A stretch of 51,303 nt of DNA. It comes from a virus. Below the pieces are notes generated by a model. It was not told where the DNA came from, searched no databases, and was given only the letters and a program-made list of their open reading frames with translations. The DNA lies in IMG/VR virus record IMGVR_UViG_3300025110_000019, positions 1 to 51,303 of that record. One strand, given 5' to 3'. Both the position numbers and the translations under genes were made by a program. Shown here piece after piece: positions 37,673 through 44,371 of the stretch (its first letter is position 1; the number at the start of each line of letters is the position of its first letter).

Positions 37673-37717
37673 ATATAAATAATAACTTAATAGGTTGTGG
37701 CTCACCACAAATATAAT

Positions 37718-37951
37718 ATGTCAAATAATAATTTAACAACGACTCGATTCGTAATAAGAAAATCCTTAATAGGTAAGAATGTAGTAATATCTTTCATCAA
37801 CAAGAAAGGTGATAAGATGAAGTATAACCATGATGAAGTATATAATACTTATAAAGATAGATTTGAATCTATGAATTGCTTCGCTAAGTATAAGTCTTAT
37901 ACTAATACTAACACGATGCCAGCATTCTGTCGAGACTTAGCAATAGTCTAA
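37718..37951 (+). CDS. Small early protein, paralogue of 38676-38906
   Basis: 77 residues from ATG 37718 (MSNNNLTTTRFVIRKSLIGK). A GTG 21 bp upstream would add seven residues but the ATG fits the paralogue. It aligns over its whole length with the 76-residue protein at 38676: RFVIRKSLIGK/RFVVRQSLVGK, YNHDEVY/YNHDKVF, FAKYKSYT/WAKYKSYT. Function unknown; first rightward gene, so probably an immediate-early host-modifying protein. Confidence 0.7.
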   Translation: MSNNNLTTTRFVIRKSLIGKNVVISFINKKGDKMKYNHDEVYNTYKDRFESMNCFAKYKSYTNTNTMPAFCRDLAIV

Positions 37952-38675: not shown

Positions 38676-38906
38676 ATGGCAAATGTAATTCAAAGTAAAA
38701 GATTCGTAGTGAGACAATCACTTGTTGGAAAAGATACAACTATTGAAGTGACGTTTAAAAATGGCAAAACTGCCACTTATAATCACGACAAAGTGTTCGC
38801 TATCATGAAAGATAAGTTAGAAACTATGGCTTGCTGGGCGAAATACAAGTCTTACACTTCAAGCAATAACTTACCGTTATCTGTAAGAGGAGAAGATATT
38901 TCGTAG
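38676..38906 (+). CDS. Small early protein, paralogue of 37718-37951
   Basis: 76 residues, ATG at 38676: MANVIQSKRFVVRQSLVGKD, then TTIEVTFKNGKTATYNHDKV. It shares the order RFV-R-SL-GK, YNHD-V and AKYKSYT with the protein at 37718, so the two arose by duplication. Probably a small alpha/beta domain. Function unknown. Confidence 0.7.
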   Translation: MANVIQSKRFVVRQSLVGKDTTIEVTFKNGKTATYNHDKVFAIMKDKLETMACWAKYKSYTSSNNLPLSVRGEDIS

Positions 38907-39122: not shown

Positions 39123-39162
39123 GTGTAAATAACAAAAGTATAACAAACTGAATCGCTAAATA

Positions 39163-39446
39163 CCTATAACGAAGTGCTGAGTAATTATAGGTGATTCGAG
39201 ACGTAATTCGAAGCGCGTTGAGCGTCTTATAAAAAATGGGAACGAGCGTAGGTCAATTTGCCTACAAAAAGGATGTAGTTTCACTTGTTTAGCATCTATA
39301 AATAATACGAATGAGTAAATCAGAGGCGATACTGATAGCGACCGAATGCGCAGAAAAGCCTCTAATAAGGTAATTGAAGCCGAAATGGCGAAATGGACTG
39401 TCGAGTGATAGCAGCAGACAAGTGGGTTCGATTCCCATCATTACCA
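39163..39446 (+). ncRNA. Predicted structured RNA with tRNA-like 3' end
   Basis: No open frame lies between 39122 and 39461. Several local stems are present: CCTATAA/TTATAGG (39163-39191), AGACG/CGTCT (39199-39227), GTAGG/CCTAC (39248-39265), GATG/CATC (39272-39296) and AGAGGC/GCCTCT (39322-39363). The 3' end looks like the T-arm and acceptor of a tRNA: GTGGG-TTCGATT-CCCAT (39422-39438) and GGTAAT (39369) facing ATTACC (39440-39445). No canonical anticodon arm with T33 can be drawn, so it is not called a tRNA gene. Confidence 0.5.
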
Positions 39447-39461
39447 CTAAAATATAAAATT

Positions 39462-40257: not shown

Positions 40258-40331
40258 GGACGAGTAGCTTAACTGGATAAAGCAACGCCCTTCTAAGGCG
40301 TAGAGTGTGAGTTCGACTCTCACCTCGTTCA
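40258..40331 (+). tRNA. tRNA-Arg (anticodon TCT)
   Basis: A canonical 74-nt cloverleaf: acceptor GGACGAG/CTCGTTC, D-arm GCTT/AAGC with GG in the loop, anticodon stem ACGCC/GGCGT with loop CTTCTAA (anticodon TCT), T-arm GTGAG-TTCGACT-CTCAC, discriminator A. CCA is not encoded. It reads AGA codons, which are frequent in this AT-rich genome, so it probably supplements the host. A copy of the 33-nt element begins at its 3' end. Confidence 0.93.
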
Positions 40332-42416: not shown

Positions 42417-42627
42417 TAAGATCATAATAGTAGCATTAGGAGTATCTATATGGTACTCTGCTACTTTAAATAAAAAGTACAACAACATATCTAAAAAACT
42501 AGATATGATTGTGGAAAATAGTGAAAAAGGAAAAATAGATTCCTTGCAATTTGAAATAATGAATTTAGGATATAAACTAGATTCTATGATATTAGAACAT
42601 GATTATGGATTTAGTTTCACAAACTGA
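42406..42627 (+). CDS. Small membrane-anchored coiled-coil protein
   Basis: 73 residues, ATG at 42406. Residues 5-20 (KIIIVALGVSIWYSAT) form a membrane anchor; the rest is a helical, coiled-coil-like stretch (YNNISKKLDMIVENSEKGKI, then FEIMNLGYKLDSMILE). The layout resembles Rz-like spanins or small anchors, but it lies in the early block away from the holin candidate. Confidence 0.55.
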   Translation: MTTNKIIIVALGVSIWYSATLNKKYNNISKKLDMIVENSEKGKIDSLQFEIMNLGYKLDSMILEHDYGFSFTN

Positions 42628-42650
42628 ATACGATTTGAGAATGATAATAA
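42618..42650 (+). promoter_or_regulatory. Rightward 33-nt element, copy 6
   Basis: Block 1 CACAAACTGAATACGA (one change, T to G side of the Y/R pair), 8 bases, block 2 TGATAATAA. It begins within the last codons of the preceding gene and the next start (42657) is 7 bases past block 2. Confidence 0.75.
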
Positions 42651-42656
42651 TAATAT

Positions 42657-42872
42657 ATGAATAAAAAATGCAAATGTAATAAAATAATACCAGTAGAACG
42701 TCTGCGACTTGGCTTTAGAGTCTGCGTGGATTGCTCAACAGTATCAAGATACGGTTGTGCTCCAGTTATAAACCATAAAACTGGCAACACTATACAGATA
42801 ATGTCTAGTGAAGATGCGGAGAAAGTTTACAAACTATTTCGCAGGCGTGGCTACGGTACAATGTTAAGATAA
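42657..42872 (+). CDS. DksA/TraR-type zinc-finger protein
   Basis: 71 residues, ATG at 42657. Pattern CKCNKIIPVERLRLGFRVCV followed by DCSTVSRYG matches the C4 zinc finger of small DksA/TraR proteins (C-x-C ... C-x2-C), followed by NHKTGNTIQIMSSEDAEKVY and a basic end RRRGYGTMLR. Phage TraR-like proteins bind the RNA polymerase secondary channel; here the finger is clear but the coiled-coil acidic tip is missing, so that effect is inference. Confidence 0.7.
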   Translation: MNKKCKCNKIIPVERLRLGFRVCVDCSTVSRYGCAPVINHKTGNTIQIMSSEDAEKVYKLFRRRGYGTMLR

Positions 42873-42877
42873 ATGAT

Positions 42878-43273
42878 ATGAATAAAGAAGAATTAAACCT
42901 AGAAATAGGTAAGTTAAAAGCGTCCCTAGAGGCGCACGAAAGCCAAGTGAAAGATCTTCAGCAAGATTTAAAAGTTGCTGAAAAGAAATTAGCAAATTCT
43001 AATAAACCACAGTTGACTATAAAACAACTTAATACAATAGAAGACGCTATAAGAAGCTCAGTAGATAATTATAGATTTGACGAGATTGACCAATATGAGT
43101 ACGAATTCGGTTTAGAATACGATAATAGAGTAGAACTAAACCACATCGAATTCAGAGACCATGATGATTTATCTAGTGAAATCTACGCAAAAGTTGAAGA
43201 TCTATTTGGTATAGCTGATGAAAGTGACGATAAACCAATAGGAGTAGACTCCAATGGTGTACCAAGCGAATAG
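42878..43273 (+). CDS. Acidic coiled-coil protein
   Basis: 131 residues, ATG at 42878. Residues 1-45 are a coiled coil (IGKLKASLEAHESQVKDLQQ), then a linker, then an acidic domain (FDEIDQYEYEFGLEYDNRVE). It is the last gene before the large non-coding RNA region. Function unknown. Confidence 0.65.
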   Translation: MNKEELNLEIGKLKASLEAHESQVKDLQQDLKVAEKKLANSNKPQLTIKQLNTIEDAIRSSVDNYRFDEIDQYEYEFGLEYDNRVELNHIEFRDHDDLSSEIYAKVEDLFGIADESDDKPIGVDSNGVPSE

Positions 43274-43349
43274 TCAGTTATAAACACGGAATATCAAGGT
43301 CGCTGGCCACACAAAGTAGCCCAGTAGTAAAACGTACCTTGTATTCCAT

Positions 43350-43413
43350 GGAGTGTCCGGCTTAAATGCAAACCACTAATAGGGTCTGGACGGCGAAACC
43401 ACCCTAGCACTCC
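43350..43413 (+). repeat. 64-nt direct repeat with pseudoknot potential, copy A
   Basis: 62 of 64 bases identical to 44037-44100. GGAGTG (43350-43355) pairs with CACTCC (43408-43413); TAGGGT (43380-43385) with ACCCTA (43401-43406); CCGG (43357-43360) with CTGG (43386-43389). The last two interleave and form an H-type pseudoknot inside a closing stem. It follows the 43288-43347 stem after the bases AT. Confidence 0.8.
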
Positions 43414-43939
43414 AAAATATAGTTGTATTCTTTGCGCGGAATGAAAATGAGTGTCCGCGGTTTACAACTCGAGAGATTGATAGTCAAGAAAGTGAGGATA
43501 AAACAGTTTGCTATCCCTCACCTCTCAGCCTAGACGGGAATACACGGTTGCGCTCGTGCTGAAAACAAGTCTAGGTCACGTCTCCAGAGATAATAACCTT
43601 TACGTGGTTGGAGATATAAGTAAATATATAAATTTGAACAGCGAAGTCAATGAAGTATATTGAAACTAATAATTATCAAACGTTAGCTATGTTAAACTAT
43701 TAGCTACGTGTCTGTGAGCTGGTGAGGGATCGTTATGAACTCAGGGAGCAGACTAAATGTGAACTAGGTGGTAATGTGTGAATTGGTACGATGAGTTTAT
43801 ACTCGAAGGATGCAACGAAACACAAATGTAGGATAAAGCGATTAAAGCAAACTCTAAGGTTCGCGATGGAATAGTAGTTAATTCATGCTATAGAAGTCGA
43901 AGGGATAAGGTTTTATAGAACCACACCTACGGTTCACAA

Positions 43940-44033
43940 CAGCTTGAAATGGAAAAACATCCGCGTCTTGGTACCCAAAGTACGCCGGTGTGTTGCCTGA
44001 CGAGGTGGGAGGTTCGATTCCTCCCTAAGCTGC
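43940..44033 (+). ncRNA. tRNA-like domain near the 3' end of the large RNA
   Basis: T-arm GGGAGG-TTCGATT-CCTCCC (44007-44025) and acceptor-like pairing CAGCTT (43940-43945) with AAGCTG (44027-44032). Between them are TTGG/CCAA and GCGT/ACGC pairs but no anticodon arm with T33 and no proper D-arm. It may be a processing substrate for RNase P/Z, a tRNA mimic, or an eroded tRNA. It is followed by AT and the second 64-nt module. Confidence 0.45.
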
Positions 44034-44036
44034 AAT

Positions 44037-44100
44037 GGAGTGTCCGGCTTAAATGCAAACCACTAATAGGGTCTGGACGGCGAAAACACCCTAACACTCC
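44037..44100 (+). repeat. 64-nt direct repeat with pseudoknot potential, copy B
   Basis: Differs from copy A only at 44086 (C to A, predicted unpaired) and 44094 (G to A), the latter turning a predicted G-U pair at the end of the closing stem into A-U. The closing stem is thus kept. Copy 7 of the 33-nt element starts 4 bases later. Confidence 0.8.
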
Positions 44101-44103
44101 TAT

Positions 44104-44136
44104 CACAAATTAAATACGAATAAAGTAAGATAATAA
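44104..44136 (+). promoter_or_regulatory. Rightward 33-nt element, copy 7
   Basis: Block 1 CACAAATTAAATACGA (same as copy 5), 8 bases, block 2 AGATAATAA. It lies directly after the large RNA and the next start codon (44141) is 5 bases past block 2. Confidence 0.75.
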
Positions 44137-44140
44137 ATAT

Positions 44141-44371
44141 ATGAAGACAATATATGAAAGACTCAACCCAGATATTCTGGCGAGTATAAAAAAAGATAAA
44201 CAAAAATATCCTTATACAACAAGAGCTTTAGTTTTAAAGCTTAAATCCACCGAATATTGGGACGATTTAACTGTAAGTGATATTAGAGCAGTATTAATAC
44301 ACTCTCATGTAAGTATGATCGACATTCAACAAGATATACTATGGGGTGATAAATTTTTAACAAATGAGTAA
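44141..44371 (+). CDS. Small hypothetical protein
   Basis: 76 residues, ATG at 44141. MKTIYERLNPDILASIKKDK, helical, with ISDIRAVLIHSHVSMID-like hydrophobic helix near 46-60. Overlaps the next gene by 8 bp. Function unknown. Confidence 0.6.
   Translation: MKTIYERLNPDILASIKKDKQKYPYTTRALVLKLKSTEYWDDLTVSDIRAVLIHSHVSMIDIQQDILWGDKFLTNE

Follow-up and report, generated by a model that had tools for sequence, protein, structure and literature searches.

Among the closest described counterparts of the RNA analysed here are GOLLD and ROOL, which are single, integrated RNAs with multi-branched folds. GOLLD is characterized by a conserved 3′ domain and a homo-oligomeric cage. Its linkers can hold tRNAs (PMC12286853). 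As regards smaller tRNA-related domains, alanine identity rests on G3·U70 and minihelices are charged (PMC9976931), and an acceptor/T-arm hairpin is cleaved by RNase P, for which it is a sufficient minimal substrate (PMC11143913). The locus considered here spans positions 43274–44140 of IMG/VR virus record IMGVR_UViG_3300025110_000019, which comes from an uncultured marine phage and the 51,303 bases of which were analysed in full (hereafter ‘the window’). A preliminary description, made from the letters alone, suggested that these 867 nucleotides (nt) might be a divergent GOLLD or ROOL RNA or a new class. It is the latter alternative that fits, the region being a structured phage RNA that matches no Rfam family. 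Its anatomy is well supported as a chain of independent small folded RNA beads ending in an anticodon-less tRNA-shaped RNA and, as judged from sequence comparison, it is a real and recurrent class of modular phage RNA not catalogued so far.

Coding content and folding of the region

The limits of the gene-free region were correctly drawn, the upstream open reading frame (ORF) ending at 43273 and the next one starting at 44141, and the longest ORFs entirely within 43274–44140 amount to 51–59 codons on either strand. This region (region B) is, however, not the sole gene-poor stretch of the window: a second structured non-coding region (region A, ~39123–39461) has its own tRNA-like end. Where at least six strong stems had been announced, region B holds at least nine folded elements (Table 1) and is more structured than shuffled sequences, 837 nt of it reaching −231 kcal/mol, as compared with −213.4 ± 6.4 for 20 dinucleotide shuffles, none of which does as well (z −2.7). 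Taken element by element, z is −2.9 for 43284–43353, −2.4 for 43418–43472, −2.1 for 43526–43577 and −3.2 for the tRNA-like 43938–44034. Near both ends of the region lies a 66-nt direct repeat (43348–43413 and 44035–44100, 97% identical). The duplication of pseudoknot modules noticed earlier is thus real, and an H-type pseudoknot is possible by inspection in both copies. Real as well is the tRNA-like 3′ part. This tRNA-like structure (TLS), of a type named C, has no anticodon arm and a perfect T-arm, and combines an acceptor/T-arm pair, the T-loop of which follows the consensus TTCGANT, with a GG partner element, the features of a tRNA-like fold in the broad sense.

Relatives were obtained by ligase-based scanning of IMG/VR contigs, which gave 62 loci (designated by L and a number; genes are designated by their start positions). 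Where flanking genes are present, the homologues of 42657/42878 and 44141/44364 are usually separated by ~200–1700 nt without long conserved genes; the exceptions are one relative with almost no gap and the longest gaps, which also hold small open frames. The arrays are strongly divergent in sequence, and those inspected are made up of closed stems in a row. In relatives, gene 38676 is followed by a second array. The covariation that had been suggested as a check is found in stems across the family, with weaker support in the window's own elements. Thus, the core element has few close relatives (it is retained in 7 related contigs, with one compensatory double change), and a long-range GATAAT/ATTATC pairing, invariant on both sides, is proposed for it. 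The outer stem and the S1 and S2 stems of module X, as parsed by hand, are re-formed with other bases among L226, L190, L014, L020 and L023. The acceptor and T stems of type C vary among relatives with pairing retained.

Families of anticodon-less tRNA-like structures

The arrays are built around anticodon-less tRNA-like scaffolds, namely a ~41-nt mini-TLS and larger types with a replaced anticodon region. The mini-TLS (type A, ~41 nt) consists of an acceptor of 6–7 bp, AATGGTTNNT, the T-arm, the returning acceptor strand and A. A pattern scan yielded 105 stretches, a minority of which are ordinary tRNAs or chance; the acceptor pairs in 79 of 94 elements and occurs in 24 different sequences. 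These 24 acceptor types pair in cis, whereas crosswise only 21 of 552 combinations do so; the T-arm provides no evidence in that scan because it was fixed by the search pattern. In 16 sequences, the acceptor stem of TLS-A, the structure of region A, is 100% paired with 39 cells altered on both sides, and its covariation is 0.615 versus 0.140 after shuffling (0/500). Four contigs from bacterial metagenome-assembled genomes with four different assignments (L376–L379) carry mini-TLSs; they look like phage contigs binned with hosts because two also carry TLS-B (see below) or the promoter-like motif of Table 1.

In type B (112 elements), GGG[A/C/G]GTG..GGTNAG and AAC–T-arm–CAC[T/G/C]TCC–A are retained around inserts that group by similarity into ~37 clusters, several types being merged in the largest one. 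The closing stems of these inserts form a helix of ≥5 bp in 58% of cases in cis versus 10% crosswise. When counted over the 34 type B elements that came from scans not keyed to this type, pair 3–70 is G·U in 31 and residue 73 is A in 32, and pair 4–69 covaries (A–U 15, C–G 14, G–C 5). G3·U70 together with A73 is an alanine signature, which predicts alanylation of TLS-B. The window's own type C is devoid of G3·U70.

Exchange of modules between phages

Comparison with the relatives indicates that related phages trade beads and tips as entire cassettes, the scaffold remaining constant. Tip G is 93–97% identical in distant relatives, where it sits on other stems, stand-alone or inside TLS-B (L023, L341), and tip B, which stands alone in the window, has an identical 34-nt copy inside the TLS of L010, again on another stem. 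Bead 4 is identical in L010, beside different neighbours, and the tip of bead 1 recurs in L067 on the stem GGAGTATCGTGG/CCACGTACTCC and in L020 at the opposite end of the array. Module P stands alone beside TLS-B in L174 with its stem fully compensated; in 4 sequences this stem is 100% paired, with 3 of 7 pairs altered on both sides and the tip nearly invariant, and a tip related to it is found inside a TLS in L019. Other tips, too, recur in different scaffolds, and some inserts are nested in other inserts (L295, L333, L371). Finally, 1,620 nt beside the array are 99.94% identical in L004, yet the array itself has ~91 nt of extra hairpins there, among them a diverged bead 3 copy, the inner stem of which is compensated (GCGTGAG/CTCACG).

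Comparison with catalogued RNA families

The likeness to GOLLD and ROOL was not borne out. No Rfam family matches the region at E ≤ 5, and the covariance models RF02032 (GOLLD) and RF03087 (ROOL) match nowhere on the whole record, nor in the array of a relative, at E ≤ 10. No RF02032 match above 150 bits and no RF03087 match above 99.1 bits was found; for ROOL, the genome search had no positive control and is weak on its own. Instead of an integrated fold there are small independent domains, the number, order and tips of which differ between relatives. With regard to tmRNA (RF00023, threshold 47 bits), the match reaches 12.1 bits over 15 nt, in the T-arm of region A only; the TLS of the window has C3–G70 and G73 in place of the alanine identity G3·U70 and A73, seen only in the relatives' TLS-B, and no tag reading frame was noticed, no dedicated search having been made. 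The TLSs form no tRNA (RF00005) cloverleaf with an anticodon arm, and ARAGORN and Rfam call only the tRNA-Arg at 40258. At gathering and permissive thresholds, Rfam gives no convincing family beyond true tRNAs in the window, regions A and B or the relatives' loci, the remaining matches being one 157-nt tRNA-model match, one borderline tRNA, the T-arm-only tmRNA match and chance hits. By the tests made, the array is thus not GOLLD, ROOL, tmRNA or tRNA.

The 157-nt match (L024:6900-7056, 37.5 bits) spans a TLS and a module resembling a tRNA 5′ half, a hint that tRNA pieces may be the origin. When searched by blastn, 50,697 phage records gave no match to the region, the stretches examined of MW202828 and of an elemo phage, both with related terminases, contain no such T-arms, and no description of this RNA was found in the open-access literature (the search did not extend to subscription papers and preprints). 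Host mimicry was also considered: in 200 Flavobacteriaceae genomes, the window's beads have no matches other than weak ones and ones of the T-arm type, and a role of bead 3 as a decoy of a CRISPR repeat (47 nt, GTTGTA..TACAAC) is unsupported in the same genomes.

Features of the locus and neighbouring genes

Table 1. Structured RNA elements and promoter-like motifs of the window
Feature	Coordinates	Strand	Description
Hairpin of region A, tip B	39322..39363	+	stand-alone; tip GCGATACTGATAGCGACCGAATGCGCAGAAAAGC; z −2.9
TLS-A of region A	39369..39446	+	acceptor GGTAAT/ATTACC; T-arm GTGGG-TTCGATT-CCCAT; TLS-A at same place after same gene in relatives
Promoter-like motif	42619..42650	+	same motif as at 44105; presumed start of unit 42657 – 42878 – RNA array
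Bead 1	43288..43347	+	hairpin GGAATATCAAGG/CCTTGTATTCC; conserved tip GGTCGCTGG..CCCAGTAGTAAAACGTACC; z −2.9
Bead 2, pseudoknot-capable module, copy 1	43350..43413	+	outer GGAGTG/CACTCC; GTCCGG/TCTGGAC; TAGGG/CCCTA; pseudoknot by inspection
Bead 3	43421..43469	+	hairpin AGTTGTA/TACAACT; inner GCGCGGA/TCCGCG; z −2.4
Bead 4	43471..43526	+	GAGAG..CTCTC; inner GTGAGGATA/TATCCCTCAC
Bead 5 (module P)	43529..43575	+	stem CCTAGAC/GTCTAGG; tip GGGAATACACGG..GTGCTGAAAACAA
Core element	43580..43679	+	GTCTCCAGAGATAATAACC..GGTTGGAGAT, variable hairpin, ATTATCAA
Hairpin	43680..43709	+	ACGTTAGCTA/TTAGCTACGT; sequence inspection; inner part z −0.9
Bead with tip G	43710..43753	+	stem GTCTG/CAGAC; tip GGTGAGGGATCGTTATGAACTC
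Module X	43759..43937	+	outer GTGAAC/GTTCAC around pseudoknot S1 GTGGT/ACCAC, S2 TGTAGG/CCTACG; conserved GGATAAAGC
TLS type C	43940..44032	+	acceptor AGCTTGA/CTAAGCT plus C-1:G73; AATGG element; insert; CCTGACGAGGTG; T-arm GGAGG-TTCGATT-CCTCC; z −3.2
Pseudoknot-capable module, copy 2	44037..44100	+	66-nt repeat
Promoter-like motif	44105..44136	+	ACAAATTAAATACGA-N9-GATAATAA, ahead of next gene

The phage is tailed, according to its genes for portal, large terminase, GroEL, Erf, exonuclease and DNA ligase, and its nearest named terminases are those of a Manatee Spring phage (62%) and of Flavobacterium and Cellulophaga phages. Up to ~37 kb the genes are encoded on the minus strand, and from 38 kb onwards on the plus strand, the array being placed among small plus-strand genes. 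An ordinary tRNA-Arg(TCT) at 40258..40331 (+), called by ARAGORN and Rfam, serves as a contrast case. In region A, a pseudoknot-like element (GTCGTAGTTCCACTTGTTTAGCGAC..GAACAAGT in relatives) is present twice upstream of TLS-A (39190–39320), widely conserved with stem changes.

The motif ACAAANTRAATACGA has six matches (38375, 38602, 40331, 42619, 44105 and 45131), all on the plus strand and before genes, mostly followed 9 nt on by GATAATAA; the last copy differs, an ATG often lies 8–14 nt past GATAAT, and the box is also present in relatives. It is likely a phage promoter, from which leaderless mRNAs would possibly be made. Gene 38676 (38676–38906), which precedes the mini-TLS in relatives, encodes a small protein 44–87% identical across them; it has no relative among named phages, and the predicted fold (predicted local distance difference test score 92) gives no structural or family match. 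A second 38676-like protein (TRFVIRKSLIGKN...) is seemingly encoded just upstream, at 37717–37950. In most relatives, array B is preceded by gene 42657–42872, the product of which is, by eye, cysteine-rich and zinc-finger-like, with resemblance to the DksA/TraR motif; no convincing Pfam match was obtained for it.

Proposed explanation and alternatives

The reading favoured here, held with about even confidence, is that of a phage-encoded array of independent structured RNA domains, processed in the manner of tRNAs, the exchangeable tips of which would act on fast-changing host targets. The non-coding and structured character of the array, the anatomy of its TLSs, synteny, covariation and cassette exchange are read from the sequences themselves. 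From the promoter-like motifs before 42657 and 44141, which put the array at the end of one unit, we infer that it would be transcribed as the distal part of unit 42657–42878 and be ended by the anticodon-less TLS. Host RNase P on the 5′ side, and tRNase Z with CCA addition on the 3′ side, would recognize the fold of acceptor and T-arm and set free a stable non-coding RNA; as an acceptor/T-arm hairpin suffices for RNase P, release in the manner of tRNAs is plausible. That tips turn over while the scaffold stays constant is suggestive of selection for variable binding, and exchanged tips may bind fast-changing or host-specific targets, conjecturally a defence or host-takeover factor. More tentatively, the arrays could make up a combinatorial RNA effector system, in which a constant tRNA-like scaffold, processed and, in some lineages, alanylated through host enzymes, displays tips traded between phages against changing host defences or for hijacking host factors.

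Several points weigh against this favoured reading: a number of other beads fold no better than shuffles by energy alone, CCA is not encoded, much of the TLS evidence derives from relatives and not from the window, rapid exchange could be neutral recombination at repeats, and the L004 difference may be an assembly join error because it lies at a contig end. It is also conceivable, although rather unlikely, that the TLSs and hairpins are punctuation or untranslated-region elements whose sole role is to process or protect the 38676 and 42657–42878 mRNAs, or to regulate the next gene, the beads being functionless themselves. The position of TLS-A after gene 38676 in relatives, with the next start codon tens of nt away, the promoter-like motif directly 3′ of array B and the status of the acceptor/T-arm hairpin as a minimal RNase P substrate (PMC11143913) agree with this; a processing mark, however, has no need of many insert types, tens of nt long, with conserved tips that recur on different stems.

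Alanine-charged TLS-B elements that, in the manner of the tRNA-like half of tmRNA, act as translation decoys in the ribosome-rescue or EF-Tu/AlaRS pathway appear improbable. The near-constancy of G3·U70 and A73 while pair 4–69 covaries speaks for them, as does the charging of minihelices on the basis of G3·U70 (PMC9976931), but the TLS types of the window do without G3·U70, no message domain is present and the tmRNA model matches nothing but a T-arm. Still less credit is given to a functionless, decaying tRNA cluster invaded by hairpin insertion elements, which would accord with the difference between the near-clones, with the GGTTAG resembling a tRNA D-loop and the T-arm sequences, and with real tRNAs nearby in relatives; it is contradicted by compensatory changes in acceptors, closing stems and pseudoknots and by the conservation of T-arm and position across relatives. 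Least probable is a divergent self-assembling ornate RNA of the GOLLD/ROOL type: length, phage origin, elaborate folding and a tRNA gene 3 kb off recall it, against which stand the missing RF02032 and RF03087 matches and an organization as beads on a string, with domains gained and lost independently.

Relation to known systems

The arrays add a kind of phage RNA in which anticodon-less tRNA-like scaffolds carry exchangeable structured inserts, spread over many uncultured marine phages and unmatched in Rfam. They offer natural minimal tRNA mimics of ~41 nt, a sharp prediction of alanylation for one TLS type and, for fishing out targets, a collection of small RNA modules that recur. If the tips are effectors, RNA would take the role played elsewhere by small variable anti-defence proteins.

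Like the tRNA-like domain of tmRNA (RF00023), the TLSs combine an acceptor and a T-arm with a GG-containing remnant of the D-loop and dispense with the anticodon arm, and TLS-B of relatives shares G3·U70 and A73 with it; unlike tmRNA, they carry a swappable insert in place of the pseudoknot/message ring, with no match past the T-arm. With GOLLD and ROOL, the array shares the nature of a large phage-encoded non-coding RNA near tRNA genes, whereas its beads are independent and variable in number and order, its tRNA-like domain is integral and there is no sequence–structure match. By description, the tRNA-like structures at the 3′ ends of plant RNA viruses are similar in that upstream pseudoknots are followed by a tRNA mimic; here, by contrast, the genome is that of a double-stranded DNA phage, the folds are different, and the elements are repeated and recombining. 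The stable RNAs C and D of the T4 tRNA cluster can likewise be compared by description, being small phage RNAs of unknown function beside tRNAs, for which, to our knowledge, module exchange has not been demonstrated.
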